Part shown: one piece after another, positions 5,774-62,585 of the stretch | How positions within the stretch are numbered: position 1 is the first letter of the stretch | Layout of the letters: every line of letters starts with the position of its first letter | Source: Pinibacter soli | Lineage (GTDB): Bacteria; Bacteroidota; Bacteroidia; Chitinophagales; Chitinophagaceae | Assembly: GCF_029961145.1 (NCBI RefSeq) | Contig: NZ_JASBRG010000007.1 | Coordinates: forward strand, 2,832,189-2,896,188 | Length of the DNA: 64,000 bases | Direction of reading: 5' to 3' | Notes under the pieces: generated by a model | The model's input: the letters and a program-made list of their open reading frames with translations, nothing else | The model's database searches: none | What the model was told of the DNA's origin: nothing | Made by a program: the position numbers and the translations under genes

Positions 5774-5898
5774 TTGAAAATTGAAAGTTGAAAGTTGAAA
5801 ATGAGCGTTACTGGCGGTCGAACAGACCAATTAAGATTACAGGACAATCATTTTCAATTTTCAATTCTATTTTCAAACTTCAATTTTCAACTTTCAAA
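5774..5898. repeat. Word-repeat inverted repeat, GTTGAAA type
   Basis: Left arm 5774-5812 is built of GTTGAAA/ATTGAAA units. Right arm 5849-5898 is the reverse complement in TTTCAA units. It fills the whole gap between the cytochrome and ferredoxin genes and starts right after the stop codon. Confidence 0.85.
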
Positions 5899-5908
5899 AC
5901 ATAGCTCT

Positions 5909-6865
5909 ATGGATTCAAAAAATAACGATTTGAATGATTCGCGTAGAGATTTCCTGCGAAAAGGTTTTGTGGCCACTGCCGCTGTCGCGACAGGGCTGGG
6001 GCTAACGGAAACGGCGTGCAAGGATACAAAATCCAAAACAGGCGATACGGTGAAACTGCTTTCCCCTGATGGCAAAATAGTGGAAGTGGATTCTTCAATG
6101 ATCAATCCTGCGATACCGGACTCACTTCTCTCCAATCACAATGTGCGAGAGGGTGTGCCCGGTAAAAAGTTTGTAATGGTGATTGATCTGTCCAGGTGCA
6201 GGAATGCAGGCAAGTGTAAGAGTGCCTGTTCAAAGATGCACTATCTGCCGGACAATCGCAGCTACATCAAGATCAACAAAATGCAGGATTCAGATAAGGC
6301 TGCGCCTTACTGGATGCCTACGCCATGCTTTCACTGCGACAATCCGCCGTGCGTAAAAGTGTGCCCTGTGGGCGCCACTTTTAAATTGACGGATGGCATT
6401 GTGGCCATCGATAACGAACGCTGTATTGGTTGCCGGTTCTGCATGGTAGCCTGTCCATATTCCGCAAGGGTTTTTAACTGGGATACCGAGTACCAGTTGA
6501 ACATTACACAGATGAATGAAATAAAGCCACACGCCGCATGCAGCACGCACGTAACGGGTACAGTAGAGAAATGTGATTTCTGCCCGACCAATACTGCTAA
6601 GAATGAATTACCGGATTGTGTGCAGGCTTGCCCCAATGGTGTATTCTATTTTGGCGATGAAGTGGAAGACGTGGTAAGCAACGGCGACGAGACAGTTCGA
6701 CTAAGTCAGTTATTAAAAGATAAGTCTGGTTACAGATACCTCGAAGACCTGGGAACCAAGCCAAGAGTTTATTATTTGCCTCCGGTAAACAGACAATTCC
6801 CATTTAAAGATGTTGAAGGACAAAATGAGACAGACGGACAAACCAGCCATGAATCAGGTCATTAA
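5909..6865 (+). CDS. Tat-exported 4Fe-4S ferredoxin subunit (DmsB/HybA-like)
   Basis: 318 residues from the ATG at 5909; the longer in-frame start at 5795 would translate repeat DNA. A Tat signal (SRRDFLRKGF) is followed by a PDGK linker. Four iron-sulfur sites are laid out as in the DmsB/HybA/NrfC family: C97-C103-C107; C140-C143-C148-C152; C172-C175-C178-C182; C211 with C222-C225-C237-C241. The first site is CX5CX3C instead of the usual CX2CX3C. The protein would carry electrons in the periplasm between the NrfD membrane subunit encoded next and the cytochromes. No molybdopterin catalytic subunit gene is adjacent. Confidence 0.92.
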   Translation: MDSKNNDLNDSRRDFLRKGFVATAAVATGLGLTETACKDTKSKTGDTVKLLSPDGKIVEVDSSMINPAIPDSLLSNHNVREGVPGKKFVMVIDLSRCRNAGKCKSACSKMHYLPDNRSYIKINKMQDSDKAAPYWMPTPCFHCDNPPCVKVCPVGATFKLTDGIVAIDNERCIGCRFCMVACPYSARVFNWDTEYQLNITQMNEIKPHAACSTHVTGTVEKCDFCPTNTAKNELPDCVQACPNGVFYFGDEVEDVVSNGDETVRLSQLLKDKSGYRYLEDLGTKPRVYYLPPVNRQFPFKDVEGQNETDGQTSHESGH

Positions 6866-6904
6866 ACGGTTTGAATAATCGAACCGGTAACAAATGCTGC
6901 ACGT

Positions 6905-6934
6905 ATTAATTGTTAATTATTAATTATTAATTAC
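6905..6934. repeat. Short AATTATT tandem repeat
   Basis: About four units of AATTATT/AATTGTT just before the NrfD gene. It resembles one arm of the AT-rich word-repeat family; no second arm was recognised. Confidence 0.6.
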
Positions 6935-6936
6935 AA

Positions 6937-8289
6937 ATGGAACCTGTAAAAATAAAGTTGGATAAATCGAATCAACTGCTCACGGATTTGATGCCGAAAA
7001 AATTCAACGCCTCGGGAAAGTTATGGGTAGGCTTCCTGCTGGTAATAGTCGTGATAGGCTTCTTTGCCTACATCCGGCAATTGCAAAAGGGCCTTGTTGT
7101 AACCGATATGCGCGATTTTACTTCATGGGGAATATACATATCCAACTTCGTTTTTTTTGTTGCCATAAGCCTCGTTGGTTCGCTCGTGAGTGCCATTCTC
7201 AAACTCACAAATGTAAAATGGCGCACACCGCTTGTGCGTATCTCAGAAATAATTGCGGTTGCTGCTATATTTTTTGCTGCTATCATCATCATTGTGGACA
7301 TGGGAAGACCTGAAAGATTCTGGCATTTGTTTGCATATGGAAGAATTCAATCGCCTATCCTTTGGGATGTAATTGTTATAACCACTTATCTTGTTGTAAG
7401 CTCTTTATTGCTTTACATTCCATTACTTCCTGACATTGCTATTTGTCGCGACCTGACTCCCGAGTCTTCAAAGTTCAAAAAATGGTTTTACACTTTCTTC
7501 GCCTTGAACTGGAGAGGTACTGCCCAACAATACGCTCTCATACACAAATGTATCAATGTGCTTGCAGTGCTTGTTGTTCCTCTTGCGTTAGGCATTCACA
7601 CCGTTACTTCATGGTTGTTTGCAACGACCTACAGGGCCGGTTGGGACAGCTCCAACTTCGGACCTTATTTTGTGGCCGGTGCGTTCCAGGCAGGTTGCGG
7701 AGGCGTAATTGCCGTTACATATGTTTTGAGAAATCATTACAACTTAAAAAAATACATCACCACCAAACACTTTGATAACATGGCAAAGCTATTGGTGCTG
7801 TTGTCACTGGTTTATCTCTATTTCAACATCAACGAATATTTGGTACCGGGTTATAAAATGAAAACGGTAGATGGTGAACATTTGAAATCTTTGTTCACCG
7901 GTCACTATGCGCCATTGTTTTGGAGCGTGCAGATATTCGGCATGATAGTTCCCATTGTCGTTATGCTGTTTAAAAAAGGGCGAGCGCCGCTTCCGGTATT
8001 TATCGTTTCCCTCATGGTGGTGGTCGGTGCATGGTTCAAGCGCTTCCTCATTGTTGTGCCTACGCTTCTTCACCCTTTCATTCCCATCCAGAACGTTCCT
8101 GCATCATGGCACACTTATATGCCAACATGGGAAGAGTGGGCCATTACAGCGGCATCGCTGGCCGGAGCGCTGTTGGTTATTACTTTTTTTGTAAGACTGT
8201 TCCCTATCATTTCAATCTGGGAAATGACCGAAGAGCAGCAAACACCTCAAATTGATGAACAAACGAATTTGTATGAAGCTCAAGCCTAA
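6937..8289 (+). CDS. nrfD: NrfD/PsrC-family membrane quinol-oxidoreductase subunit
   Basis: 450 residues with about nine to ten hydrophobic spans. The pattern fits NrfD/PsrC/ActC: DMGRPERFWHLF after one span (a conserved feature of the family), NWRGTAQQ, and the long C-terminal spans ending in SIWEM. Such proteins hold the quinol site and hand electrons to a four-cluster ferredoxin partner, here the product of 5909-6865. It overlaps the next gene by 17 bases, implying translational coupling. The symbol is a family label; substrate and direction of electron flow cannot be told. Confidence 0.9.
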   Translation: MEPVKIKLDKSNQLLTDLMPKKFNASGKLWVGFLLVIVVIGFFAYIRQLQKGLVVTDMRDFTSWGIYISNFVFFVAISLVGSLVSAILKLTNVKWRTPLVRISEIIAVAAIFFAAIIIIVDMGRPERFWHLFAYGRIQSPILWDVIVITTYLVVSSLLLYIPLLPDIAICRDLTPESSKFKKWFYTFFALNWRGTAQQYALIHKCINVLAVLVVPLALGIHTVTSWLFATTYRAGWDSSNFGPYFVAGAFQAGCGGVIAVTYVLRNHYNLKKYITTKHFDNMAKLLVLLSLVYLYFNINEYLVPGYKMKTVDGEHLKSLFTGHYAPLFWSVQIFGMIVPIVVMLFKKGRAPLPVFIVSLMVVVGAWFKRFLIVVPTLLHPFIPIQNVPASWHTYMPTWEEWAITAASLAGALLVITFFVRLFPIISIWEMTEEQQTPQIDEQTNLYEAQA

Positions 8290-8839: not shown

Positions 8840-8880
8840 CACACAGATGACGCTGATTAGACTGAGTTGCACTGATTTCA
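8840..8880. repeat. Dispersed 35-bp repeat (CACAGATGACGC type), copy 1
   Basis: A 35-base block starting CACAGATGACGC and ending GAT; 32 of 35 positions match a second copy near 59527-59561. Both copies lie directly beside word-repeat arms. Confidence 0.75.
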
Positions 8881-8885
8881 ATAAA

Positions 8886-8984
8886 CGGAATAACTGAATG
8901 TTTCTGTTTGACAGTCATCTTTGAATTTGAACATCAGTCATTCAGTTACTCAGTATTCAGTTATTCAGTCATTCAGTTATTCAA
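8886..8984. repeat. Word-repeat inverted repeat, ATAACTGA type
   Basis: Left arm GGAATAACTGAATG near 8886-8906; right arm from 8934 is several CAGTTATTCAGTCATT units. It lies in a 408-bp gene-free gap (8840-9247); the remaining part, 8985-9247, shows nothing recognisable beyond AT-rich DNA. Confidence 0.82.
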
Positions 8985-9247
8985 CAGCCATCATACTTCT
9001 GTTACCAGCCTCTTCGCCCAATACGACCAAGATATGATCCGCATCAGTTTTTTGAAAACCATCTACCGGAAATTCTGCTCAAAAAATTTGGATTTTCAAA
9101 AAACTTTTGTCTAAAACATGAAACTTCAGTAAATTTATTAAACAACTTTTTTTCCAAATACTGGTAGAACATCAACCTGGAAAAAACGCTAACGATTGTG
9201 TTTACTGGTTAAACTTTTTAAAAAAAACAGAAGAAAGAGCACCGACT

Positions 9248-9586: not shown

Positions 9587-9590
9587 GAAG

Positions 9591-9685
9591 TTGCCGACTA
9601 TTAGTTGTTAGACTTTCAGTGCGATATTACTAAATTGTAGTTTCTGCATTTAAAGCCTAACAACTAACAACCATCAACTGACAAC
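9591..9685. repeat. Word-repeat inverted repeat, TTGTTAG type
   Basis: Left arm around ATTAGTTGTTAGA (9599-9612); right arm CCTAACAACTAACAACC and following units at 9656-9685. Confidence 0.75.
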
Positions 9686-9738
9686 ATTCCCCATGCAACG
9701 ACTATTCTTTTAGCCCGGTCAACTACAAAAGCCCATTA

Positions 9739-11055: not shown

Positions 11056-11061
11056 AATATC

Positions 11062-11482: not shown

Positions 11483-11580
11483 GAGTTATGAGTTTTGAGT
11501 TATAAGTTATGAGTTTTAGGGCACCGAATTTCATAAATTGATAACTCAAAACTTATTACTCAAAACTTCTTTTTAACTCA
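11483..11580. repeat. Word-repeat inverted repeat, GAGTTATGAG type
   Basis: Left arm 11483-11519 in GAGTTATGAGTTTT units; right arm 11540-11570 in AACTCAAAACTTATTACTC units, between two genes of the same strand. Confidence 0.8.
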
Positions 11581-13863: not shown

Positions 13864-13927
13864 GTTTCAGGCTTATTTCACGCAAAGGCACCAAGGAGCA
13901 AAGACGCAAAGATCTCTTAAGATAAGT

Positions 13928-13965
13928 AAGGGTATTCTGTTTAAAAGCAGAATACCCTTTTTCTT
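13928..13965 (+). terminator. Terminator of pdhC
   Basis: Stem AAGGGTATTCTG / CAGAATACCCTT with an eight-base loop and a following T run. Confidence 0.88.
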
Positions 13966-13993
13966 TGATCAGCTTTTGAAGCTTCCTTACCCT

Positions 13994-14033
13994 AAAAAAG
14001 AAAGAGAGGCTGCATCAACTACAGTCTCTCTTT
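13994..14033 (-). terminator. Terminator of leuS
   Basis: On the minus strand, stem AAAGAGAGACTG / CAGCCTCTCTTT (one G-U pair) followed by a T-rich run, about 57 bases past the leuS stop codon. Confidence 0.78.
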
Positions 14034-14089
14034 TATACTTAATAACCTTTTGCGTCTTTGCTCCTTCGCGCCTTTGCGTGAAACACTTC

Positions 14090-18075: not shown

Positions 18076-18174
18076 GAGTTATTGAATAATCGAATAACTG
18101 AAGGTTGAAATACTAAAGGTTTGATAAAATGTAAACGTTCAGTTATTCAATTATTCAGTTTATTCAATTATTGC
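18076..18174. repeat. Word-repeat inverted repeat, ATAACTGA type
   Basis: Left arm 18076-18104 (GAGTTATTGAATAATCG and on); right arm 18136-18174 (CAGTTATTCAATTATTCAG and on). It fills the gap between ftsX and the DUF3098 gene. Confidence 0.85.
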
Positions 18175-19452: not shown

Positions 19453-19461
19453 GATGTGTTC

Positions 19462-19560
19462 TTTACCACTAAGACACTAAGGACACTAAGCCCCACTAAG
19501 GGGTTCCCGATAAGCGGGTTTTCTTAGTGAAGCTTTGTGCCCTTAGTGCCTTAGTGGTAA
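19462..19560. repeat. Word-repeat inverted repeat, CACTAAG type
   Basis: Left arm 19462-19490 (ACCACTAAGACACTAAGG and on) and right arm 19523-19560 (CTTAGTG..CCTTAGTGGTAA). Within the loop CCCACTAAGGGG and CCCGATAAGCGGG form small hairpins. Confidence 0.87.
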
Positions 19561-19601
19561 TATTTGGCCGAATAGCATTGTTTCACCACTCACTTTAATT
19601 T

Positions 19602-20909
19602 ATGCAAACAGCATCAAAAAAAGTCATCAACGGTTGGGCCATGTACGATTGGGCCAACAGCGTTTATAATCTTGTAATCACTACAACGTTCTTCCCTATC
19701 TATTTTACCTCAGTAACCAAAAGCCATTTTGGATCGGAGAATATTCCTTTTCTGGGTAGAACCTTTGTAAACTCTTCTCTGTATGATTACACGCTGGCAG
19801 TTGCCTATTTATTCATTGCATTACTATACCCCATTCTTACATCCATTGCAGATACAAGAGGCAACAAAATAAACTTCATGAAGTTCTTTTGCTACATGGG
19901 TTCTATTGGTTGCGCTTGCTTGTACTTTTTTAAAGGCGCCAATTTATGGTGGGGAATCATCTGCTTCATGCTTGCAGCCATGGGTTATGTAGGCAGTCTG
20001 GTTTTTTACAACGCTTATCTTCCCGAAATCGCAGCCCCGGAAGATCAGGACCGTGTAAGCGCCAAAGGCTTTTCAATGGGTTACATTGGTAGTGTAATAC
20101 TTCAGATGATTGGCTTTGCGTTGGTGGTTGTAATGAAGGACAATTCTGCGCTTGCATCCCGGATAACTTTCTTGCTTGTGGGTATTTGGTGGATCAGCTT
20201 TGCACAGATAACGTTCTCCGTGCTACCTAAAGTGAACAAAGAGTCTGTAAAGAGGATCAACATTTTTACAGATGGTTTTACCGAAGTGAAAAAAGTGTAT
20301 GGCGAAGTAAAGAAACTGCCGGTGCTTAAAAGATTTCTGCGTGCGTTCTTCTTCTATAGCATGGGCGTACAAACAGTAATGCTAGCGGCTACTTTATTCG
20401 GAAGCAAATTGCTCGGGCTCCCAGATACAAAACTTATTATCACTGTTGTACTTATCCAATTGGTGGCGATTCCCGGAGCTATTATGATGAGCCGCTTATC
20501 CGCAGTTTATGGAAACATAAAGGTTTTGATGGGCGTGGTTCTGTTCTGGATTGGCATTTGTGTGGCAGCTTATTATACCGCTCAATTCAAAGAAAATGGA
20601 GGGGACCCGGAATACGGATTTTATGGACTTGCCATTGCCGTTGGCCTTGTCATGGGCGGCATTCAATCGCTTAGCCGTTCTACCTATTCAAAACTAATGC
20701 CCCAAACAAAAGATACCGCTTCCTACTTTAGCTATTACGATTTGACTGAAAAAATAGCGATCGTGATCGGCATGTTCAGCTTTGGTTTTATTGAGGAGTT
20801 ATCGGGCAGTATGAAAAACTCCGTTCTGTCATTGATCGTTTTCTTTGTAATAGGCCTGGTTTGGCTATATTCAGCGTTGAAAGTGTCAAACGTGAATCGT
20901 CAATCTTGA
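19602..20909 (+). CDS. MFS transporter, Atg22/UMF1 type
   Basis: 435 residues with about twelve membrane spans. The start VINGWAMYDWANSVYNLVITTTFFPIYF is the signature of the UMF1 (Atg22-like) branch of the major facilitator superfamily, and GGIQSLSRSTYSKLMP in the second half is also conserved there. Fungal Atg22 exports amino acids from vacuoles; bacterial substrates are unknown. The last codons fall within an inverted repeat (20885-20953). Confidence 0.88.
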   Translation: MQTASKKVINGWAMYDWANSVYNLVITTTFFPIYFTSVTKSHFGSENIPFLGRTFVNSSLYDYTLAVAYLFIALLYPILTSIADTRGNKINFMKFFCYMGSIGCACLYFFKGANLWWGIICFMLAAMGYVGSLVFYNAYLPEIAAPEDQDRVSAKGFSMGYIGSVILQMIGFALVVVMKDNSALASRITFLLVGIWWISFAQITFSVLPKVNKESVKRINIFTDGFTEVKKVYGEVKKLPVLKRFLRAFFFYSMGVQTVMLAATLFGSKLLGLPDTKLIITVVLIQLVAIPGAIMMSRLSAVYGNIKVLMGVVLFWIGICVAAYYTAQFKENGGDPEYGFYGLAIAVGLVMGGIQSLSRSTYSKLMPQTKDTASYFSYYDLTEKIAIVIGMFSFGFIEELSGSMKNSVLSLIVFFVIGLVWLYSALKVSNVNRQS

Positions 20910-20953
20910 ATGGGTAGACTCAGGGCGTACAACCTGCATTCACGTTTCACGAC
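20885..20953. repeat. Word-repeat inverted repeat overlapping a gene end, ACGTGAATC type
   Basis: Left arm (AAACGTGAATCGTCAATC) lies inside the last codons of the MFS gene; right arm CTGCATTCACGTTTCACGA at 20935-20953. The same 19 bases occur at 61141-61159. Confidence 0.8.
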
Positions 20954-20969: not shown

Positions 20970-21812
20970 ATGCAACTCTATTCCATACACACAGGTAATT
21001 TTAAACTCGATGGCGGCGCTATGTTTGGCGTGGTACCAAAGAGCATTTGGAACAAATTGAATCCCGCAGATGAAAACAATCTTTGCAACTGGGCTATGCG
21101 TTGTTTGCTCATTCAGGATGGCAACAGGTTAATTCTGGTCGACAATGGGATTGGCGATAAACAAGACGCTAAATTCATGGGGCACTATTTTCTGAATGGT
21201 GACGACACTTTAGATAAATCGCTTGCCAGACAAGGGTTCCACAGAAATGATATTACCGATGTTTTTCTAACGCATCTTCATTTTGATCATTGCGGCGGCA
21301 GCATTGTACGCGAAGGCGACAAACTCGTTCCGGCTTTCAAAAATGCTATATACTGGAGCAATGAGAGACATTGGGAATGGGCAACGAAACCCAATGAACG
21401 CGAAAAAGCATCTTTCTTAAAAGAAAATATTCTACCCATTCAAGAAAGCGGTCAACTGAAATTTATTGAGGATAACGGTGTACTGGCTTCATTTACCGAC
21501 AATATCAAGGTCCGTTTTGCCAACGGCCACACAGACGCCATGATGCTGCCGCAGCTTTCTTATAAGGGAAAAACAATCGTTTATATGGCAGATCTTCTGC
21601 CTTCTACCGGCCACATTCCTTTGCCGTATGTAATGGCTTACGACATGTTTCCCCTCACGACTTTACAGGAGAAAAAGGCTTTTTTACAGGAGGCTCAGCA
21701 AAATGAATACATTCTTTTCTTTGAGCACGACCTGAAAACCGAGTGCTGCACGCTTGTGCAAACGGAGAAAGGTATCCGCGCCGGTGACTCGTTTCTGCTG
21801 TCGGAGGTGTAA
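20970..21812 (+). CDS. Metallo-beta-lactamase-fold hydrolase
   Basis: 280 residues from the ATG at 20970 (an in-frame start at 20910 would translate repeat DNA). The zinc motif is THLHFDHCGG (HXHXDH) near residue 104, with further ligands ANGHTDAM and the C-terminal FFEHD. The layout resembles the lactonase/quorum-quenching and carbapenem-inactive branches of the fold; a natural substrate cannot be named. No signal peptide, so cytoplasmic. Confidence 0.87.
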   Translation: MQLYSIHTGNFKLDGGAMFGVVPKSIWNKLNPADENNLCNWAMRCLLIQDGNRLILVDNGIGDKQDAKFMGHYFLNGDDTLDKSLARQGFHRNDITDVFLTHLHFDHCGGSIVREGDKLVPAFKNAIYWSNERHWEWATKPNEREKASFLKENILPIQESGQLKFIEDNGVLASFTDNIKVRFANGHTDAMMLPQLSYKGKTIVYMADLLPSTGHIPLPYVMAYDMFPLTTLQEKKAFLQEAQQNEYILFFEHDLKTECCTLVQTEKGIRAGDSFLLSEV

Positions 21813-21818
21813 CGGGAC

Positions 21819-21908
21819 CGGTGAATAGTGAATAATGAACGGGTTGCTGACTGCCGGAGAACCAAATAATCGGCAACTTATTCACAATTAACGATTCACC
21901 ATTCACCT
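21819..21908. repeat. Word-repeat inverted repeat, GTGAATAGTGAAT type
   Basis: Left arm GGTGAATAGTGAATAATGAA at 21820-21839; right arm 21879-21908 (TTATTCACAATTAACGATTC and on). It ends 26 bases before the glyS start codon. Confidence 0.82.
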
Positions 21909-21916
21909 TTGACGTT

Positions 21917-24930: not shown

Positions 24931-24956
24931 GATTAGATGTTTGAGTTTTGAAGGTT

Positions 24957-25028
24957 AAATAATTGAATGATTGAATAACCGGTGCAATGTCAACATTCAG
25001 TCCCAACTATTCAATGATTCGATTATTA
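24957..25028. repeat. Word-repeat inverted repeat, AATTGAATGA type
   Basis: Left arm 24957-24980 (AATAATTGAATGATTGAATA and on); right arm 25005-25027 (TATTCAATGATTCGATTATT). Confidence 0.83.
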
Positions 25029-25077
25029 ATCCCGTGTAAATCAGCATGATCCTTGTCAACGCTGTTCCGGTGCTTTA

Positions 25078-28961: not shown

Positions 28962-29411
28962 ATGAATATCAAGCATCTTACGTTGATTTTTACCGCTGCT
29001 GTTACCTTTTTTACCCTGTCATTCAAAGCTAAGTCCAAACAGGGATTGGAGGGATATATCTATTTTCTCTCCGGAAACAGAATGCCATCACCGGATGTAA
29101 AACCGGTGCAACCTTCAGGATATTCGACTACGTTATTTATTTATGAACTTACCAATCGCAACCAGGTATCTGCCATTAATCATTCGCCTTTTTACAGCAA
29201 TATTTTTACCAAACTTGTTAAAACCGTAAAATCAAACGACAAAGGTTACTTTAAAGTGAAATTACCTCCCGGCCATTATTCATTGTTTGTAAAAAAAGAT
29301 ACCGCTTTCTATGCCAATTTATTTGAAGGAGATAATATCAATCCCGTAAAAGTAGAAGCAGGCAAGTTCACTCAGGTGAAAATGAATGTGGACTATGATG
29401 CAGTTTATTAA
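28962..29411 (+). CDS. Exported small beta-domain protein, unknown function
   Basis: 149 residues. Signal peptide (KHLTLIFTAAVTFFTLSFKA), then one compact beta domain with GLEGYIYFLSGNRMP, SNDKGYFKVKLPPGHYSLFVKKD and VKVEAGKFTQVKMNVDY, the pattern of carboxypeptidase-regulatory-like (Ig-type) domains. The middle of the sheet is interrupted by an insertion with INHSPFYSNIF. It is a stand-alone version; function unknown. Confidence 0.75.
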   Translation: MNIKHLTLIFTAAVTFFTLSFKAKSKQGLEGYIYFLSGNRMPSPDVKPVQPSGYSTTLFIYELTNRNQVSAINHSPFYSNIFTKLVKTVKSNDKGYFKVKLPPGHYSLFVKKDTAFYANLFEGDNINPVKVEAGKFTQVKMNVDYDAVY

Positions 29412-29549
29412 TTTGAAAATTTGAAAATGTTTTTATGCGAAGATGTTGAGAGTATTTTATCACCATGTTGGGCAGCGGAGAAATTGCTGCTTTTTGGGGA
29501 TATGCACACCCCAATTTTCAAATCTTCAAATTTTCAAATTTTCAAATTA
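29410..29549. repeat. Word-repeat inverted repeat, TTTGAAAAT type
   Basis: Left arm 29410-29429 (AATTTGAAAATTTGAAAATG); right arm 29512-29549 made of four TTTTCAAAT units. It overlaps the stop codon of the preceding gene. Confidence 0.85.
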
Positions 29550-35108: not shown

Positions 35109-35855
35109 ATGCCTAAATGGATAATTGCAGGTTTCGCATTTTTTCTAACGCTTACCCTGTTTGCCGCACAAGCTCAAACCGCTGATGAAGTGATCAGCAA
35201 ATATGTTGACGCAATGGGTGGAAAAGAAAAACTCAATTCTATCAATACACTTCATATGGAAGGTGTGGCCGTTATGCAAAACGGAAATGAACTTACCACA
35301 ACGATGGACAAAGTGAATGGTAAACTTTCGCGCAGGGAATCACAGTTTGGTGCGATGGGTTCGCTTACATCAATTATTACAGACAAAGGCGGTTGGGTAT
35401 CAGGTCCTCGTTCTGGAGGAAAATTTGAACCCATTCCTGCTGATAAATTAAAGAATACAAAAGCAGAACTTGATTGTGCAGGTTCATTGGTTGACTACGC
35501 ATCAAAAGGCTACAAAGTAGAATACCTTGGTAAAGAAACACTCGATGGCAAGGACTGTCACAAAATAAAACTAACACTTACTTCCGGTGCCGATATTACT
35601 TATTACATTGATGCCCAGACTTACTACATTTTACGTGAAACCCATAAAGGCAGCAGCTTTGCGGGCAATGGTGGCGGACGTCCCGGCGCTGCAGATGCAG
35701 ATATCAGCACAGATTTTTCCGACTATCAAAAAACAGATCAGGGTTATATTTTTCCATTTAAAGTGAAGGTAGGCGGTATGGGGAATGGCATGACTTTTGA
35801 AAAAATTGAAGTAAACAAACCGCTGGATGTAGCTAAACTCAGTAAACCAGAATAG
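35109..35855 (+). CDS. LolA-like outer-membrane lipoprotein-sorting domain protein, copy 1
   Basis: 248 residues from the ATG at 35109. Signal peptide IIAGFAFFLTLTLFAAQAQ, then a domain starting TADEVISKYVDAMGGKEKLNSINTLHMEG. The all-beta body (KDCHKIKLTLTSGADITYYIDAQTYYILRETH) resembles LolA/LolB-type folds that carry lipids. A paralogue lies next to it (35958-36683). A ribosome site is not clear; a 19-codon reading frame overlaps the start but was not called. Probable periplasmic protein of unknown ligand. Confidence 0.75.
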   Translation: MPKWIIAGFAFFLTLTLFAAQAQTADEVISKYVDAMGGKEKLNSINTLHMEGVAVMQNGNELTTTMDKVNGKLSRRESQFGAMGSLTSIITDKGGWVSGPRSGGKFEPIPADKLKNTKAELDCAGSLVDYASKGYKVEYLGKETLDGKDCHKIKLTLTSGADITYYIDAQTYYILRETHKGSSFAGNGGGRPGAADADISTDFSDYQKTDQGYIFPFKVKVGGMGNGMTFEKIEVNKPLDVAKLSKPE

Positions 35856-35919
35856 GAATTAGGAACTAGAAATTAGGAGTTATAAATTTTCACACTGCCT
35901 TACTAATTCCTAATTCCTC
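35854..35919. repeat. Word-repeat inverted repeat, AATTAGGA type
   Basis: Left arm 35854-35882 (AGGAATTAGGAACTAG and on) and right arm 35900-35919 (TTACTAATTCCTAATTCCTC), starting at the stop codon of the first LolA-like gene. Confidence 0.83.
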
Positions 35920-35957
35920 TACTCTTCTTCAACACAAAAATTTCTAAACACATACTA

Positions 35958-36683: not shown

Positions 36684-36822
36684 TAATTAATAATTAATAA
36701 AGAATAATTAAGAAGGCCGCATTCGTTATTGAATGCGGCCTTCCTGTTTATTTAAACACAGGAAAAGCTATTTTCTTATTGGTAAGTCGCACCTATTAAT
36801 TCTTAATTATTAATTATTAATT
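36684..36822. repeat. AT-rich word-repeat inverted repeat enclosing a terminator
   Basis: Left arm 36684-36710 (TAATTAATAATTAATAA and on); right arm 36795-36822 (TTAATTCTTAATTATTAATT and on). The loop holds the stem-loop at 36713-36742. Confidence 0.8.
36713..36742 (+). terminator. Terminator-like hairpin, AAGGCCGCATTC stem
   Basis: Perfect 12-base stem AAGGCCGCATTC / GAATGCGGCCTT with loop GTTATT, after the second LolA-like gene. Its core recurs at 37726-37757 and 51471-51500. Confidence 0.75.
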
Positions 36823-36828
36823 TCATCC

Positions 36829-37666: not shown

Positions 37667-37787
37667 AATTAATAATTAATAGGGAGAATTCGAAACAAAA
37701 AGTTTCACCTCATGCTTAAAAAAAACAGGGCGACATTCGATATTGAATGCCGCCCTGTTAATAATTAATTTTTAATTCTTAATTCCT
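37667..37787. repeat. AT-rich word-repeat inverted repeat enclosing a terminator
   Basis: Left arm AATTAATAATTAATAGG at 37667-37683; right arm 37758-37787 (TTAATAATTAATTTTTAATT and on). Confidence 0.75.
37724..37759 (-). terminator. Terminator of the S46 peptidase gene
   Basis: On the minus strand, stem AACAGGGCGGCATTC / GAATGTCGCCCTGTT (one mismatch) with loop AATATC, followed by eight T. Related in stem to 36713-36742. Confidence 0.88.
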
Positions 37788-40062: not shown

Positions 40063-40202
40063 AGTAATGAATGGTGAAACGTCAATCGTTAATAGCCTGC
40101 ACATTTAACTCCAAAAGCATCCTGAGTTTTATCGGCTCGTAAATAAAAATCAAACGTACCGAATTGGGCTTTCTATTCACGATTGACGTTTCATCATTCA
40201 CC
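40063..40202. repeat. Word-repeat inverted repeat, GTGAAACGTCAATCG type
   Basis: Left arm 40063-40095 and right arm 40171-40202 are reverse complements (GAATGGTGAAACGTCAATCG / CGATTGACGTTTCATCATTC after allowing one change). Confidence 0.88.
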
Positions 40203-40203
40203 A

Positions 40204-40629
40204 CTAGCTGCTGTGGTCAGCAATGATCAACCACTTACCATTGATTTTTTTAAACAATAAGGTATAAATACCGCCGATATCGCCGACAGTTCTTTTAAGG
40301 AACCATTTACCAACAACAAAATAGGTATCTCCTGAAAGCGGTTTTACTTGTAACACTTCAAAGAATAGTTTGCCCATTTGCACCGTATCCTTGTAGTTTT
40401 TTTTGTAGTTATCAAGCGTGTTTTGGTAACCATACGTCACTCCTGATTTTCCGACAAATATTAATGAATCGCTTTTCCAATAGCCTTTCATAAAATCATC
40501 AATATTGCCTCTGTTCCAGGCTTGCAACTGATCGTTAAGCACCTTTCTTATGGCTTCCTCATTTTTGCTTTGCGAAAATACGGGTGCGAGGGTGAGCAGG
40601 AAAAATGCTGCAGTTAGTAATTTCTTCAT
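40204..40629 (-). CDS. DUF4440/SnoaL-like exported protein
   Basis: 141 residues from the Met at 40629. Signal peptide KKLLTAAFFLLTLAPVFSQ, then one NTF2-like cone domain: EAIRKVLNDQLQAWNRGNIDDFMKGYW, DSLIFVGKSG, TYGYQNTLDNYKKNYKD, GGIYTLLFKKINGKWLIIADHSS. This is the YybH/DUF4440 pattern. No catalytic residues can be assigned. Exported; ligand unknown. Confidence 0.85.
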   Translation of the reverse strand: MKKLLTAAFFLLTLAPVFSQSKNEEAIRKVLNDQLQAWNRGNIDDFMKGYWKSDSLIFVGKSGVTYGYQNTLDNYKKNYKDTVQMGKLFFEVLQVKPLSGDTYFVVGKWFLKRTVGDIGGIYTLLFKKINGKWLIIADHSS

Positions 40630-41480: not shown

Positions 41481-41667
41481 GGTTGCCACTGAGGTACAGA
41501 GGATACAGAATTAATTTTACCAGGAAATACTTTATTTAAACACAAAGGGCTCAAAGTCTCGCATACGGGAACTAAGAGTGGTAAATATCTTGTTTCCTTT
41601 GCGCAAGACTTTGAGCCCTTTGCGGTTAAATAGCTTCTCCGTATCTCTAGGCCTCTGTGGCAAAAAC
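41481..41667. repeat. Nested inverted repeats between convergent genes
   Basis: Inner arms CACAAAGGGCTCAAAGTCT (41541) and AGACTTTGAGCCCTTTGCG (41606-41624) are nearly perfect; outer arms at 41481-41510 and 41634-41667 share GCCAC..GAGG..CAGAGGATAC. Same style as the word-repeat family. Confidence 0.82.
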
Positions 41668-44542: not shown

Positions 44543-44594
44543 TAGTTGTTAGTTGTTAGTTGTTAGTTGTTAGTTGTTAGTTGTTAGTTGTTAG
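44543..44594. repeat. Seven-fold tandem repeat of TAGTTGT
   Basis: Seven perfect 7-base units and a partial one. The word is the same as the TTGTTAG inverted-repeat type at 9591-9685 and 53395-53474; a remnant of the second arm (TCTAACAACTCC) lies near 44677-44688. Perfect phase suggests recent slippage. Confidence 0.92.
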
Positions 44595-44688
44595 ACACTA
44601 TGTGCAAGTTTCAAATTAATAGCACAGTTTTCAAAAAGTGCGGATTAATATAAACAGCCCAAACGTTCCCATAACTTCTAACAACTCC

Positions 44689-44720
44689 AAAAAAACAATG
44701 GCCCACCACTGGTGAGCCAT
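44689..44720 (-). terminator. Terminator of the RRM protein gene
   Basis: On the minus strand, stem ATGGCTCACC / GGTGGGCCAT around a short loop (one G-U pair), followed by a T run. Confidence 0.85.
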
Positions 44721-45197: not shown

Positions 45198-45210
45198 GGG
45201 ATTTAATTAT

Positions 45211-45322
45211 TAATAATTGAATGATTGAAGAATTGATTAACAGAATGGCAACATTAGAATAACTGAATGACTGAATAAACTGAATAATTGAGTTGTTGAA
45301 AGTCATAGCGAATAACTGAAAT
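45211..45322. repeat. Word-repeat arm, AATTGAATGA/ATAACTGA type, left of the IS
   Basis: AATAATTGAATGATTGAAG at 45211-45229 and ATAACTGAATGACTGAATAA and further units at 45259-45322. A matching right arm is at 46531-46557, on the other side of the inserted element. Confidence 0.75.
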
Positions 45323-47278: not shown

Positions 47279-47386
47279 CGATAACTGAATAATTGAGTAA
47301 CTGAATAACTGAATGTTTCATTTCAATCATTCGCTATAAATTTCGACCACTCAGTTATTCAGTCATTCAGTTATTCAGTCATTCAA
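47279..47386. repeat. Word-repeat inverted repeat, ATAACTGA type
   Basis: Left arm 47279-47316 (CGATAACTGAATAATTGAG and on); right arm 47349-47386 in CAGTTATTCAGTCATT units. Confidence 0.87.
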
Positions 47387-51100: not shown

Positions 51101-51391
51101 ATTTTCCCTTACGTTTACAAACAAAATGGCATTGGCAAACTAATAGGCATGCCTGTTCCCGGCACTGGTACTGCAGTTTGGTGGGAGACGCAAATTGACC
51201 CAACAATCGTGTTCGGTATTCCGATGGTAGCCACTATCGGCAAAGAAAACCGGCCAACCGAAAACCTGCAACTGGAGCCAGATATCAAAGTGCCTTTGCC
51301 TTATGAAGATTTCCTTAATGGCAAGGATGTGCAGATTGAGGCTGCGGTGAGAGAGATGTTGAAGGAGATTGGAGGAACTGCCGCTAATTAA
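48110..51391 (+). CDS. Tricorn-type protease with N-terminal propeller, PDZ and S41 domains
   Basis: 1,093 residues with signal peptide (KYLLGLLLSVTSLALTAQ). WD40/TolB-like propeller blades fill residues about 20-540 (SPDGKNIAFGYKG, WSHDGKSIAFASDR and further repeats), then a charged Lys/Glu linker (residues 560-600), a second propeller part, a PDZ domain (GKGIKISEVIAGGPFDKSYSKIKNGTIIEKIDG) and the S41 catalytic part. The nucleophile should be Ser in SEGNYSDAFIF, with GGGWLHDDLATF before it. Acts as a periplasmic tricorn/S41 peptidase. Confidence 0.9.
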   Translation: MKYLLGLLLSVTSLALTAQENPLWMRYPAISPDGKNIAFGYKGDIYVVPASGGTAIPLTIHEAQDMMPVWSHDGKSIAFASDRYGNFDVFIMPATGGVPIRLTYNSAGDYPYDFSPDDKKVLFGSSRIVPASDILFYSPRFFQNLYSVNAKGGRALLISAGGFENAHYNNAGTQIVFQDRKGYEDPWRKHQTSSVCRDIWIMDVDKKTFAKKSTHQGENREPLFSSDNQSIYYLSENGGSQNLYKMPIAAGATEQKLTDFKTHPVRHLSESKDNTLCFTYNGEIYTLKEGSAAAKVNIQINNDGRQGIEKNLPVSGNVTEFALSPNGKEVAFVSRGEVFVTSVDGTQTKRITNTPQQERMVQWNPDGRSVIYAAERNNSWDIYSTSIVNKDEPYFFASTVLKEEPLIATAAEEFQPKYSPDGKEIAYVEERNILKVYNIASKQSRTVLPKGRNYSYSDGDWNFNWSPNSQWLVSDDQEGHWFTSNVALLKADGSNGIQHPLTSGFGQGNVKWNWNGKALSWVSAKEGRKSLAMQGSREVDIYVGFFDQDQYDRFKLSKDDFTLLKEKEDKEKAEKEKAEKNKTADAHAPTKVGPSHKDTATSLKTWNPDIDNMENRVAKLTINSSTVSDYAVSPDGEKVYYLSAFEKGFDLWVTEPRTHETKVLAKLGGTQSGIEMSKDGKAVFVLNKGSIVKVDENGKVSPIGINADMVLNQAEERAYIYNHVCRQVQRKFYDTSLHKVDWKMMTSNYARFLPHISNNYDFQELLSELLGELNASHTGGRYSPMNPTGDATAALGLIYDETYTGKGIKISEVIAGGPFDKSYSKIKNGTIIEKIDGTPVTDSIDFASFLNRKMDKNILLDLSDGANAHWQETAKPISFGEETALMYKRWTKKMESMVDKLSDGKVGYVHVQGMNDASFRNTFDAVLGKNYNKKALIVDTRFNGGGWLHDDLATFLSGKRYLDFAPQGNRLNDGEPMGRWTKPSCVLMSEGNYSDAFIFPYVYKQNGIGKLIGMPVPGTGTAVWWETQIDPTIVFGIPMVATIGKENRPTENLQLEPDIKVPLPYEDFLNGKDVQIEAAVREMLKEIGGTAAN

Positions 51392-51576
51392 GAATTAGGA
51401 ATTAAGAATTCGTTAGGTCGATCTTTGAGCACTAAAAATAAGAACCTTAACGAAAGTCTACAATAAAGAAGGATGCCGCATTCATAGTTGAGTGCGGCAT
51501 CTTCTTTATGCTCGATTAAAAATTACTCTGACATACCAGCAACAATTCTTAATTCTTAATTCCTAATTCTTAATTG
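51386..51576. repeat. Word-repeat inverted repeat, AATTAGGAATTAAGAATT type
   Basis: Left arm 51386-51411 starts at the tricorn stop codon; right arm 51542-51576 (TTCTTAATTCCTAATTC and on). The loop holds the hairpin 51463-51509. Confidence 0.85.
51463..51509. terminator. Long hairpin between convergent genes
   Basis: ATAAAGAAG-G-ATGCCGCA and TGCGGCATCTTCTTTAT pair with one bulged G. The core ATGCCGCATTC..GAGTGCGGCAT resembles the stems at 36713 and 37726. It serves the convergent tricorn and flippase genes. Confidence 0.75.
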
Positions 51577-53394: not shown

Positions 53395-53474
53395 CAGTTG
53401 TTGGTTGATAGTTGTTGGTTGTTAGATAAGACAGCCCATTTGACCCAACACTAATAACTATCAACTAACAACTA
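53395..53474. repeat. Word-repeat inverted repeat, TTGTTAG type
   Basis: Left arm 53395-53426 (CAGTTGTTGGTTGATAGTTG and on); right arm 53446-53474 (CTATCAACTAACAACTA and on). Confidence 0.83.
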
Positions 53475-58249: not shown

Positions 58250-58272
58250 CGGGGAATTAATAATTAAAAATA

Positions 58273-58310
58273 AATAGGGTTACATTCCTTACAGGATGTA
58301 ACCCTATTTT
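58273..58310 (+). terminator. Terminator of the susC-susD operon
   Basis: Stem AATAGGGTTACATTCC / GGATGTAACCCTATT with one bulge and loop TTACA, ending in TTTT. Confidence 0.87.
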
Positions 58311-58378
58311 AGAAACAGATGATTAGTTTATATCAGCGAGGCCCTAGCACAAAGCCATCTTCATGAGGCTACTCTAAC

Positions 58379-58406
58379 GAATTTCGTACATCGTACTTCG
58401 TACACA
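58379..58406. repeat. CGTACTTCGTACA short repeat
   Basis: Units TTCGTACATCGTACTTCGTACA near the convergent ends of susD and ruvB; no second arm recognised. Confidence 0.5.
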
Positions 58407-58430
58407 ATTACACTCAAGAAGTTATTGATT

Positions 58431-59462: not shown

Positions 59463-59467
59463 TGATG

Positions 59468-59475
59468 CAAATATA
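59468..59475 (-). promoter_or_regulatory. Candidate -7 box TATATTTG abutting the ruvB start
   Basis: Minus-strand TAnnTTTG word 5 bases from the ruvB ATG; transcription would start at about the start codon. No -33 element seen. Confidence 0.45.
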
Positions 59476-59526
59476 GATCGATTTGGGATTAGGGATCGGA
59501 AATTTGAGATTTTAGATTTGATGGCT

Positions 59527-59561
59527 CACAGATGACGCAGATTAGACTGATTTGCACGGAT
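59527..59561. repeat. Dispersed 35-bp repeat (CACAGATGACGC type), copy 2
   Basis: 35-base block matching the copy near 8842-8876 at 32 positions; same strand. Confidence 0.75.
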
Positions 59562-59620
59562 GTTTGAATGAAGATACTAGCAGACTCAAACTAGTGAAAC
59601 TCACCAGAACTCAAAATAAA

Positions 59621-59683
59621 GAGGCTTCGACGAACCGCGACTGACATCAAAAACCAGTGTCAGGCTAAGCTTGCCGAAGCCTC
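59621..59683 (-). terminator. Terminator of the DUF937-OmpA gene
   Basis: Two stacked stems GAGGCTTCG / CGAAGCCTC and CTGACA / TGTCAG; on the minus strand it is followed by a TTTATTTTG tract, downstream of the OmpA gene stop. Confidence 0.72.
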
Positions 59684-59760
59684 GTTAAACATATTGAATG
59701 ACGTCAATTACTTCGAACATCGACACCAATCTCAAATATCAAATTTCAAATCTCTAATCA

Positions 59761-60972: not shown

Positions 60973-61082
60973 GATGTTGTTTTTTTAATTTTAAGAAATG
61001 AGATCAAAATAGCTACAGGACAAAGTCTTCGAAGGGAGGACAGTGTAAACGAAGTAGAACAAATTAATGAGATAAGAGTTCA

Positions 61083-61161
61083 ATAGTGAATAGTCAATCG
61101 TGAATGTGGCCTCTGGTCTGGCTCCGAAACAGTAACCAAGCTGCATTCACGTTTCACGATG
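61083..61161. repeat. Word-repeat inverted repeat, GTGAATAGTCAATCG type
   Basis: Left arm 61085-61107 (AGTGAATAGTCAATCGTGAA and on); right arm CTGCATTCACGTTTCACGA at 61141-61159, identical over 19 bases to 20935-20953. Confidence 0.85.
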
Positions 61162-61245
61162 CACCTGTCACTACTGCAAACTCTGTTCCCTGCCAATTTA
61201 ATTATTGCGTAATGTTCACTTAATTATTCGGTAATAATGGTGAGA

Positions 61246-61253
61246 TACTTTTG
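61246..61253 (+). promoter_or_regulatory. Candidate -7 box TACTTTTG for an intergenic transcript
   Basis: Plus-strand TAnnTTTG word; the only plus-strand signal in this gap that is followed by a terminator. No -33 TTG at the usual spacing. Confidence 0.4.
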
Positions 61254-61254
61254 T

Positions 61255-61358
61255 ACTGCTCTTATTTACTTGTTGTGTTAATCAAATGGTTTTAATTGAG
61301 CAAAGAATAGAATTTTCTCATGCAGTTTCCGCTTCATGTCTATGAAGCGGTTTTTTTT
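61255..61358 (+). ncRNA. Candidate small RNA, about 100 nt, between OmpA-like and kinase genes
   Basis: Both flanking genes are on the minus strand, yet a plus-strand Rho-independent terminator is present: stem CCGCTTCAT / ATGAAGCGG, loop GTCT, then eight T (61329-61358). A TACTTTTG box stands about 80 bases upstream. A 5' stem TGCTC/GAGCA frames the rest. A 19-codon frame from 61286 exists but has no ribosome site. No known RNA family recognised. Confidence 0.5.
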
Positions 61359-61360
61359 AT

Positions 61361-61438
61361 TAATTGAAAATGGAAAGTTGAAAGTTGAAAATTAAGCTGG
61401 ACACCCATTTTCAACTTTCAACTTTCCATTTTCAATTA
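61361..61438. repeat. Near-perfect 32-base palindrome, GTTGAAA word
   Basis: Arms 61361-61392 and 61407-61438 are exact reverse complements over 32 bases with a 14-base loop; made of TTGAAA/AAAGTTG units, the same word as 5774-5898. It ends two bases before the kinase gene stop. Confidence 0.93.
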
Positions 61439-61439
61439 A

Positions 61440-62492
61440 CTACAGGTCTTTCTTTTTTTCCAGCGTAAAACCTATAGTCGTTCCCACGTCTGGCGTACTG
61501 CGTACATGCATTGCCTGTCCGTGAGCTTCTATGATGTGCTTGCAAATAGCGAGGCCAAGGCCGGCGCCTCCTTTGTCGCGGCTGCGACCTTTATCTGTGC
61601 GGTAAAATCTTTCAAAAATGCGTGGCAGGTGTTCTTTTTCAATACCAATCCCGTCGTCGCTTATTTCTACCAAAACCCGGTCGCCTTCAGTTTTATACAC
61701 GCTGGCAACAATATTGCCCTCTATTTTTCCGTATTTACGGGCATTGTCTATGAGGTTTATAAGCACTTGCCTTACTTTTTCCTTGTCCGCAAAAACCGTT
61801 ACCGGTGCTTCGCAACCTTTTTTAATGCTCGTGCGAATATGCTTTTCGGTCAACTTAATGGACAGAGATTCATACAGCTCTTTTATAAGATCCTGTATAA
61901 CAAAGTTTTGCTTGTACAATATTTGCTCGCCTCTTTCCAGCTTGGAAATTTCATCCAGGTCGTTCATAAGGTGCACCAGACGCTCAACGTTGCGTGCGGT
62001 ATTTTCAAGAAATCTTTTTCTAACGTCGGGATTCTCCATCGCTCCGTTTAAAAGCGTATCTACATACCCCTGGACAGCGAAAATGGGAGTCTTGAATTCA
62101 TGGGCCAGGTTTTGCAAAAACTCCTTCCTGTAAGCTTCGTTTTTCTTAAGGATTTCAATCTCATCACTTTTTTGTGCCGCCCATTTCTCCACGTCCTCGC
62201 TTACTTCGTCAATGCTTTTGTGGGGAATGATGTATTTGTAGTAAACCTCTTCCTTTTTGCTGGCTTTCGTTTGATAAATAAACTTGTAAATCAGCTTGAT
62301 CCTCCGGTAAATGAACTGTTGCAGAAAAAACAGTATGAGAAAATACGCGACCGTATAAAGTATGATAAGGGTAAGCAAAGCCACCCACCAACTGCCAATA
62401 AAGATGAAGTTGGCAATAGCCACCAATATTGATATAGACGCCGCGTTGATAGCAGCTATTTGACGGGGGGATAAGTTTTTTGTTGAAAGCAT
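61440..62492 (-). CDS. Two-component sensor histidine kinase, PhoR-like
   Basis: 350 residues. Two adjacent membrane spans (residues about 12-32 and 36-58) with hardly any periplasmic loop, then a coil, HisKA with the phospho-His in NLAHEFKTPIFAVQG, and HATPase with NLIDNARKYG, DDGIGIEKEHLPRIFERFYR and GGAGLGLAICKHIIEAHG. Partner is the response regulator encoded just upstream (62594-63286). The lack of a sensing loop suggests it senses inside the membrane or through a partner. Confidence 0.93.
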   Translation of the reverse strand: MLSTKNLSPRQIAAINAASISILVAIANFIFIGSWWVALLTLIILYTVAYFLILFFLQQFIYRRIKLIYKFIYQTKASKKEEVYYKYIIPHKSIDEVSEDVEKWAAQKSDEIEILKKNEAYRKEFLQNLAHEFKTPIFAVQGYVDTLLNGAMENPDVRKRFLENTARNVERLVHLMNDLDEISKLERGEQILYKQNFVIQDLIKELYESLSIKLTEKHIRTSIKKGCEAPVTVFADKEKVRQVLINLIDNARKYGKIEGNIVASVYKTEGDRVLVEISDDGIGIEKEHLPRIFERFYRTDKGRSRDKGGAGLGLAICKHIIEAHGQAMHVRSTPDVGTTIGFTLEKKKDL

Positions 62493-62502
62493 TCTGAATT
62501 GA

Positions 62503-62585
62503 AAAAGTAAAAATTCAAAAGTAAAAATTCAAAAAGAAAGTCACACTGCGCCTGGTGGTTTTTGACTTTTAAATTTTTACTTAAA
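62503..62585. repeat. Word-repeat inverted repeat between regulator and kinase genes
   Basis: Left arm in AAGTAAAAATTCAAA units (62503-62542); right arm 62563-62585 (TGACTTTTAAATTTTTACTT). It sits inside the two-gene unit. Confidence 0.78.

Follow-up and report, generated by a model that had tools for sequence, protein, structure and literature searches.

What fills so many of the gaps between genes in the genome of Pinibacter soli? The window analysed here, a stretch of 64,000 nucleotides (G000:C11:2832189-2896188, where G000 is the 5.9-Mb genome that contains it), holds numerous intergenic hairpins in which each arm is a loose tandem of a short word and the opposite arm is its reverse complement. 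A preliminary description of the window proposed a mobile or self-amplifying palindrome family. We consider it likely that the window hairpins are mostly copies, without an open reading frame (ORF), of small mobile palindromic elements whose long relatives carry one small gene. The gene belongs to one of two families, the four-helix-bundle family (4HB; PF05635/TIGR02436, the protein of 23S rRNA intervening sequences) or the GxxExxY family (PF13366/TIGR04256). Direct support comes from the hairpin architecture, words shared between loci, the association of genes with arms, purifying selection on 4HB genes, replacement between species and one clean pair of filled and empty sites.

Word-built hairpins in the window

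Arms were scored as matches minus mismatches of an ungapped inverted repeat, and scores of 16 or more were called strong. Gaps were called by a greedy longest-ORF method, not by a gene finder. The 43 window gaps scored, each no longer than 1 kb, were compared with their own sequences after dinucleotide shuffling (20 sets), and a larger sample of 744 kb of G000, window included, supplied 467 gaps with shuffled gaps and matched coding segments as controls. Strong arms occur in 19 of the 43 window gaps against a mean of 0.15 in the shuffles (21 gaps reach a score of 14), and in 163 of the 467 gaps of the larger sample against one shuffled gap and one coding segment. Matching arms are therefore far from being as frequent in shuffled intergenic DNA, which the preliminary description had named as a reason to abandon its idea. 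The best window pairings are those at 61360 and 51386, in which every arm base is paired (Table 1). Among the 19 arm positions named earlier, 18 were recovered, 14 of them with scores of at least 16 and four with scores of 11-14 (8886, 20885, 37667 and 61083); at 45211 word arrays are present and a partner arm was not found. Many gaps do hold hairpins, but the earlier figure of more than 25 is a slight over-count: with 19 strong gaps it is reached only by adding weak arms and the element at 5774, which is not among the counted gaps because the ORF caller starts the next gene inside it.

The two-level structure is real. Among 290 arms of at least 22 nt, 136 are periodic against 14 when shuffled, with a period of 7 in 90, 8 in 42, 9 in three and 13 in one. 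By eye, each arm consists of about four degenerate word units, for example four 8-mers in the TAACTGA and AATTTGAAA elements. Words are also strongly correlated between loci, as the earlier reading needed: for 114 of 163 left arms, some other locus has an arm that matches in the same polarity with a score of at least 18, against eight in the opposite polarity and five when shuffled. Read inward from either end, the arms have G in excess of C in 135 of the 163 hairpins and below it in 24, and are purine-rich in 133. Stop triplets number 981 in arms read inward (805 shuffled) and 482 in arms read outward (439 shuffled).

Similarity extends beyond the arms. At least 20 loop bases can be aligned to another G000 locus in 70 of 163 hairpins, against 24-25 with loops shuffled, and at least 40 bases in 34 hairpins, against 6-7. 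A TAACTGA element, about 95-100 bp long, is 80-87% identical to several places in a related genome (G002, below), one of which may be its ortholog. An inner motif beside the arm is kept in AATTTGAAA elements, and by eye the ORF-less AATTTGAAA hairpins and an ORF-bearing copy have common bases just inside the arm. Loops of one word's hairpins contain hairpins of another word. The hairpins are elements, not loose arms.

Genes between the arms

Two close relatives were compared with G000, Pinibacter aurantiacus MAH-26 (G001; L059) and Chitinophagaceae bacterium 26-R-25 (G002; L060); all three are called Pinibacter here. The first gene-bearing case was a pair of GTGAAT arms around a 4HB-family ORF in the G002 ortholog of gap 19453-19601. 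PF05635 matches number 3, 9 and 6 in G000, G001 and G002, and PF13366 matches 2, 7 and 3, two of the seven being pieces of one broken gene. All 18 4HB genes lie between inverted arms scoring at least 16 (one, in G001, has an internal stop; flank homology indicates about 10 separate sites), as do 8 of 10 unbroken GxxExxY genes, the broken eleventh (L176/L177) being left out. Such arms flank 4 of 214 control genes of 75-160 aa, one of the four a 4HB gene, and 38 of 953 genes overall; other gene families between arms were covered only by this control test. The idea of a mobile palindrome family is thereby both supported and extended, since full-length members carry a gene, but its singular does not hold: at least a dozen word families share one architecture.

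Full-length members measure 472-812 bp in Pinibacter. Most are plain arm-gene-arm, and some have a whole hairpin at one end. The arm words around nearly all gene-bearing elements are also seen in hairpins. 4HB genes are associated with TTGTTAG, AATTAAT, GTGAAT, AAGTCAAAA, GTTGAAA, AATTTGAAA, TAACTGA, GTGGAGA and GCTTAACGC, together with one A-rich array (L161), and GxxExxY genes with CACAGAGG, CGCAAAGG, CAGATGAC and GGATT-type words. Similarity of proteins correlates with similarity of words (Mantel rho 0.31, p 0.0005, n 28; 0.19, p 0.015, n 31).

To our knowledge, 4HB and GxxExxY are common small-protein families with no known role. An NCBIfam scan of ten element proteins returned four helix bundle (TIGR02436) or GxxExxY (TIGR04256), and no known transposase domain appeared in these ten or in the two also scanned with Pfam, which gave only matches of the TIGR02436/PF05635 or TIGR04256/PF13366 type. 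The 4HB genes are under purifying selection: omega is 0.05-0.13 in six of nine pairs, including two copies from the same genome (0.106), and the other three pairs are saturated. One GxxExxY pair (L168/L175) has an omega of 0.024, and the other three are saturated. Positions G, E, D, E-x-K and Q-x-x-x-Y are conserved in 39-40 of 40 GxxExxY sequences, as would be expected for a PD-(D/E)XK nuclease, and Pfam places PF13366 in the PD-(D/E)XK group. Among 48 4HB sequences, R, S, N and E are conserved in 44-46 and a further E in all 48; the R/S/N/E motif was reported previously (PMC3936711). The solved structure nearest to 4HB by sequence is the uncharacterised 2rld (one query), and one query with GxxExxY found no solved structure near it.

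Elements beyond the genus

Strict word-hairpin patterns were not found outside Pinibacter: TAACTGA hairpins occur in 3 of 147 genomes of the family, all Pinibacter, and strict GTTGAAA hairpins in 1 of 296 genomes of the phylum, the window's own, the other two Pinibacter being outside that sample. A looser survey of 20 kb in each of 20 relatives found two Pinibacter words in other genera and 10 strong repeats in 253 gaps (the repeat of L061 is in neither figure). Confinement of the system to one genus was considered and rejected, as gene searches show that the words differ and the architecture recurs.

PF05635 is present in 116 and PF13366 in 75 of 148 sampled Bacteroidota genomes. The loci examined were the best 30 per class, one per genome at its top-scoring place, so the armed share is not an unbiased rate. 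Arms scoring at least 16 surround 15-16 of 30 loci in each class (one locus shifts according to which start codon is taken); the corresponding control counts are 2 of 369 genes and none of 61 small ones. On plasmids of Cyanobacteria, Spirochaetota, Chloroflexota and Bacteroidota, all 12 4HB loci fetched (from 26 records with a match) score at least 15 and 11 score at least 18, the lone locus at 15 being from Chloroflexota; their arms are mostly of heptamers. Three of five plasmid GxxExxY loci fetched, from seven records with a match, have arms.

The two classes differ in their arms. The 4HB arms have a period of 7 or 8 (67 of 72 arms tested are periodic), and the GxxExxY arms one of 9, 8, 10 or 12 (22 of 56). 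A C-R-C/CGGAT/CAGAT pattern marks 31 of 32 GxxExxY loci and 5 of 36 4HB loci. G exceeds C in 33 of 36 4HB loci and falls below it in two. The upstream neighbour, where one was found, shares its strand with the element gene in 64 of 66 armed Bacteroidota loci (orthologous loci counted singly), compared with 296 of 467 ordinary G000 gaps that have both neighbours on one strand. Among plasmid 4HB loci the annotated left neighbour is same-strand in 7 of 11. Riding host transcripts may thus matter in Bacteroidota without being a fixed rule.

Some plasmid loci have particular neighbours. 4HB genes stand between or beside cas1/cas2 in L249 (Anabaena cylindrica pANACY.01, arm score 33) and L250 (Pseudanabaena pPg_04, arm score 20). 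The reported presence of 4HB in cas loci may represent insertion of mobile elements, and as both such cases fetched have arms, function should be read with caution from 4HB genes among cas genes. Elsewhere 4HB genes lie amid large helicase, methylase, restriction or HEPN genes in defence-like clusters (L251 and L264 on Planktothrix plasmids, L252 in Chlorohelix, L253 in Gloeocapsa). A GxxExxY gene between fabD and fabG on a Sphingomonas parapaucimobilis plasmid (L256) has no word arms and is decayed, captured or domesticated. The 4HB locus L248 has 20 matching places within its own 69-kb plasmid, Dolichospermum pAfl69, which suggests many copies of the heptamer array there.

Turnover and evidence for movement

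Orthologous gaps show how quickly the hairpins change. Among 173 gaps with a G002 ortholog, 79 are empty in both genomes, 29 hold the same word, 29 hold different words, 27 are occupied in G002 only and nine in G000 only; among 33 with a G001 ortholog, the corresponding numbers are 22, 7, 4, 0 and 0. Half of the gaps occupied in both G000 and G002 (29 of 58) thus carry a different word, against flanks that are 88% identical (median over both relatives). This exceeds the 20.6 different-word gaps expected (p 0.0002, permutation stratified by gap length and orientation), and alignments show arm, loop and arm exchanged together at many sites.

Three G000 sites appear to record replacement of gene-bearing elements. 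Where G001 and G002 have the GTGAAT-4HB element, gap 19453-19601 of G000 has the CACTAAG hairpin 19463-19560. At the L158 site G000 has a GAACGC-word hairpin, and adjoining bases resemble an outer GTTGAAA arm; at the L165 site it has a CAGATGAC hairpin followed by what appear to be the final bases of the 4HB gene, together with the right-hand TAACTGA arm. From these sites, new hairpins appear to land in older elements and to delete part of them. In 36 same-word ortholog pairs the loops are 78.7% identical, and hairpins seem to arise with well-matched arms and to decay afterwards.

The comparison of gaps with relatives thus revealed turnover between species, but an automatic search for clean insertions among the Pinibacter species gave only two cases. 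A clean site was found on cyanobacterial plasmids. In Aulosira laxa plasmid2, a 502-bp 4HB insert replaces 25 bp between two genes, and the same junction is uninterrupted in Aulosira laxa plasmid1 and four other homologous plasmids. The insert edges lie no more than 5 nt from the annotated ends of the neighbouring genes, and at this one clean site no target duplication was seen by eye. G001 contains two TAACTGA-4HB copies with 87% protein identity at sites without flank homology. Mobility is supported by the turnover between species together with this filled and empty pair; self-amplification would, we infer, be the work of the encoded protein.

Proposed mechanism and competing explanations

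The element would consist of a pair of inverted arms about 20-46 bases long, each built of about four copies of a degenerate family word facing inward, with 7/8-base words in the 4HB class and words mostly of 8-10 bases and C-R-C type in the GxxExxY class. The element protein may recognise the stem formed by its own arms of words, whether this is DNA or RNA, and copy or insert the palindrome. Short ORF-less copies would be moved in trans, with the 4HB or GxxExxY protein as the presumed mover and a nucleic acid as the presumed intermediate. Insertions would go into the DNA between genes, many of them at a start or stop codon or within an older hairpin, removing local DNA, and inserted copies would decay afterwards.

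Several observations weigh against this model. About half of the Bacteroidota 4HB and GxxExxY loci tested have no arms at a score of 16. The polarity of GxxExxY arms is looser (G exceeds C in 22 and falls below it in 7 of 32 loci), and the arms of the Gemmatirosa GxxExxY locus (L255) read in the opposite direction. The two CACTAAG-linked GxxExxY genes, L168 and L175, are each adjoined by a complete hairpin instead of being enclosed by one, and the AGTTATG, TACGATG and GAACGCAGATT families have no member carrying a 4HB or GxxExxY gene in the three genomes. Copy number is mixed in relation to gene presence; this counts on the same side and is not used as proof. TAACTGA pattern matches number 14 in G000, without the gene, and 62 and 42 in the genomes with it (overlapping registers count twice); for AATTAAT the counts are 18 and 69 with the gene and 11 without; near-perfect GTTGAAA reaches 17.5 per Mb in G002, which has the gene, and 4.0 in G000, which lacks it. 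In the sampled sequence, however, CAGATGAC hairpins are common in G000, where such a gene was not found, and absent in G002, which has one; TTGTTAG is commoner in G002, yet G001 is the only genome in which its gene was found; AAGTCAAAA and GTGAAT are not richer where the gene is present; and CACTAAG is commoner in G002.

The absence of a known transposase domain from the elements also leaves room for another enzyme. The hairpins could be mobile through a RAYT/Y1 or DDE transposase or through host repair, with the 4HB and GxxExxY genes as passengers or domesticated riders. Three Y1_Tnp genes are present in G000; one, L107, is directly followed by a AATTTGAAA hairpin, another, L108, is flanked by inverted repeats (score 36) that are of REP type without tandem words, and GTAG-type REP hairpins occur. 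Yet one such neighbour is expected by chance with hairpins so frequent in the gaps, and word arms stand around the 4HB or GxxExxY genes of several phyla and around none of the three Y1 genes. Word class and word sequence, moreover, track the 4HB or GxxExxY protein. We regard movement by another enzyme as unlikely, though the most serious rival to movement by the element proteins.

A less probable explanation, to which we give little credence, is that the hairpins are functional 3'-end structures (terminators, mRNA stabilisers or RNase III sites) under selection, with any hairpin serving. Their placement fits. Hairpins occupy 45 of 82 convergent gaps (+-), against 60 of 169 (--), 35 of 127 (++) and 23 of 89 divergent gaps (-+), so the earlier statement that they occur in every orientation is right for presence and not for evenness. 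Stop-facing edges lie a median of 5 nt from the stop codon, against 33 nt for start-facing edges (119 labelled hairpins; the regular-expression family labels are rough, with several GTTGAAA hairpins filed elsewhere, and served only to drop unlabelled hairpins from this count). Stop-facing edges fall within 6 nt in 77 of 135 cases against 54 by random placement, and start-facing edges in 13 of 103 against 28; 36 of the 135 stop-facing edges overlap the gene end. Predicted stems are long and stable, different hairpins refill the same gap above expectation, and 19 compensated changes exceed a rough expectation of about five. Those 19, however, stand beside 160 aligned positions in the same 36 ortholog pairs where pairing was gained or lost one-sidedly, and the arms (85.5% and 89.4% identical) are hardly more conserved than their flanks (85.7%). 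Divergent gaps also bear hairpins, and GC-rich terminator-like hairpins are separate structures within some loops. As the preliminary description already held of ordinary terminators, such a role explains neither the shared words nor, as is now clear, the enclosed genes.

Local origin by slippage and hairpin-templated repair, with no movement, would suit the quasi-tandem, matched arms and some of the compensated changes, but it is barely credible where unrelated loci share words in a single polarity, loops align between loci nearly three times as often as shuffled loops, and family-specific variant units recur among copies (by eye).

Relation to known elements and significance

The 23S rRNA intervening sequences have complementary, stem-forming ends and one PF05635 (S23/IVP) gene inside; they lie in transcribed DNA and are called parasitic or selfish in PMC4990558. 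The Pinibacter elements resemble them in their stem-forming complementary ends and in the PF05635 gene between the ends of all 18 gene-bearing relatives (the window copies being gene-less). Unlike them, the window copies lie between protein-coding ORFs, and no Rfam match was found in the 14 of 30 Bacteroidota 4HB loci tested. They also differ in that their stems consist of 7/8-base words, each genome has many families, many copies lack an ORF, and GxxExxY genes form a second class unrelated to the first. Intervening sequences are excised from RNA by RNase III; for the Pinibacter elements, long stems are predicted.

Heptameric STRR repeats occur in cyanobacteria. TAACTGA direct repeats are described in Beggiatoaceae, Cyanobacteria and Bacteroidetes, with 169 sets and one indirect set in the main genome (MacGregor 2015, PMC4679880); according to the same source, indels are mostly in 7-nt steps, the distribution is patchy, the mechanism is not known and translational regulation is suggested. 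The word is identical here, and intergenic heptamer arrays are confirmed, but the arms are inverted, and on cyanobacterial plasmids 4HB genes lie between arms of heptamers.

Miniature inverted-repeat elements (MITEs) are likewise short and intergenic, with inverted ends and many gene-less copies sharing these ends with a longer gene-bearing copy. Unlike MITEs of known insertion sequences, the gene-bearing form here has no known transposase, and no target duplication accompanies the one clean site. BrickBuilt, a MITE of Porphyromonas gingivalis, has a tandem array of a 23-nt unit between small inverted ends (PMC4596501); in the Pinibacter elements, by contrast, the word array itself is the inverted end.

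REP/REPIN elements are dispersing intergenic palindromes with RAYT (Y1) transposases. The word hairpins are similarly dispersed, in a genome that also has three Y1 genes and GTAG-type REPs. Unlike REPINs, the word arms are not self-palindromic and have no GTAG/CGTC foot (by eye), a foot present in separate GTAGAGAC families, and they enclose 4HB and GxxExxY genes and none of the three Y1 genes. The GTAGAGAC REP-type palindromes are dispersed in G000 and G002 gaps, for example at L048:13927 and L052:6882. Families around GACCTGACAGGTTTT, CATCCCGACGAAGGAGGGATC and CTCAGCCTGACA are also dispersed and are not built of tandem words. Intrinsic terminators have a short GC-rich stem and then a T run; the word hairpins differ by their mostly AT-rich stems of 20-46 bp and longer loops (by eye).

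In the open-access literature searched, no report was found of 4HB or GxxExxY genes enclosed by inverted arms built of words, and a search on the printed word strings found nothing relevant. We put forward, with slightly more doubt than belief, a wider proposal: that 4HB (IVP/S23) and GxxExxY proteins move two parallel classes of single-gene palindromes without a known transposase, recognising stems of about four 7-10-base words, and that a single system has left its footprints in cyanobacterial heptamer arrays, in the TAACTGA repeats found in giant sulfur bacteria and in 23S rRNA intervening sequences. Within this proposal, the gene-bearing copies of Bacteroidota ride host genes in sense, in the proportion given above, and this suggests an RNA-level life cycle. 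One model would then account for the intervening sequences, the heptamer repeats found in Cyanobacteria and in Beggiatoaceae, and the palindromes crowded between genes. It would also extend the range of mobile elements to ones that lack a known transposase. The 4HB and GxxExxY families gain a testable role, and the rapid intergenic turnover of such genomes, where half of the co-occupied gaps differ in word, is explained.

Hairpins and other features of the window

Table 1. Word-built hairpins and arrays in the window, in order of position; none is assigned to a strand. Scores are arm scores.
Feature	Position	Remarks
GTTGAAA-word hairpin	5774..5897, arms 5774-5802/5869-5897	score 21; left arm begins where the upstream gene's stop codon ends
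TAACTGA-word hairpin, decayed	8885..8983	score 13; strong G002 counterpart, score 37
TTGTTAG-word hairpin	9589..9679	score 18; G001 and G002 with the same word
AGTTATG-word hairpin	11491..11567	score 21
CGCAAAGG-word hairpin, GxxExxY-class word	13876..14083	score 32, 39/46 paired; encloses terminator-like hairpins
TAACTGA-word hairpin	18083..18157	score 21
CACTAAG-word hairpin	19463..19560	score 28; same flanks in L151 (G002) and L152 (G001) hold a GTGAAT-word element with a 4HB gene
GTGAAT-type word pair, weak	20885..20950	score 11 only; overlaps gene ends
GTGAAT-word hairpin, decayed	21811..21909	score 16
TAACTGA-type hairpin, decayed	24953..25032	score 17
AATTTGAAA-word hairpin	29409..29549	score 20, 20/20 paired
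AATTAGG-word hairpin	35849..35923	score 16; G002 gap holds a GTTGAAA hairpin
AATTAAT-word hairpin around GC-rich hairpin	36685..36822	score 21
AATTAAT-word hairpin around GC-rich hairpin	37667..37785	score 14
GTGAAT-word hairpin	40063..40205	score 26; G002 gap holds a CACTAAG hairpin
CACAAAGG-word hairpin, GxxExxY-class word	41533..41632	score 27
TTGTTAG array, about 7 units, decayed partner arm	44543..44698	score 16; G002 gap holds a AAGTCAAAA-type hairpin
TAACTGA-type word arrays, no partner arm	45200..45291	
TAACTGA-word hairpin	47281..47382	score 25
AATTAAG-word hairpin, convergent genes	51386..51575, arms 51386-51410/51551-51575	25/25 paired; left arm overlaps stop codon
TTGTTAG-word hairpin, divergent gap	53396..53473	score 18
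GATTTGA-word hairpin	59487..59759	score 22; loop holds other word arrays and a further hairpin
GTGAAT-word hairpin, weak	61086..61164	score 13
GTTGAAA-word hairpin abutting gene end	61360..61439, arms 61360-61392/61407-61439	33/33 paired; predicted RNA fold -42.2 kcal/mol
AAGTCAAAA-word hairpin	62505..62582	score 19

GC-rich terminator-like stems ending in GCATTC/GAATGC or similar occur in or beside AATTAAT/AATTAAG arms at 36684-36828, 37667-37785, 51392-51576 and 58250-58430, and bases similar to these stems edge the loops of other members. The window also contains an rve (integrase-core) transposase gene at 45417-46466, with a 46-bp imperfect inverted repeat near 45322 and 46525; this is probably an ordinary insertion sequence that has no connection with the word hairpins.

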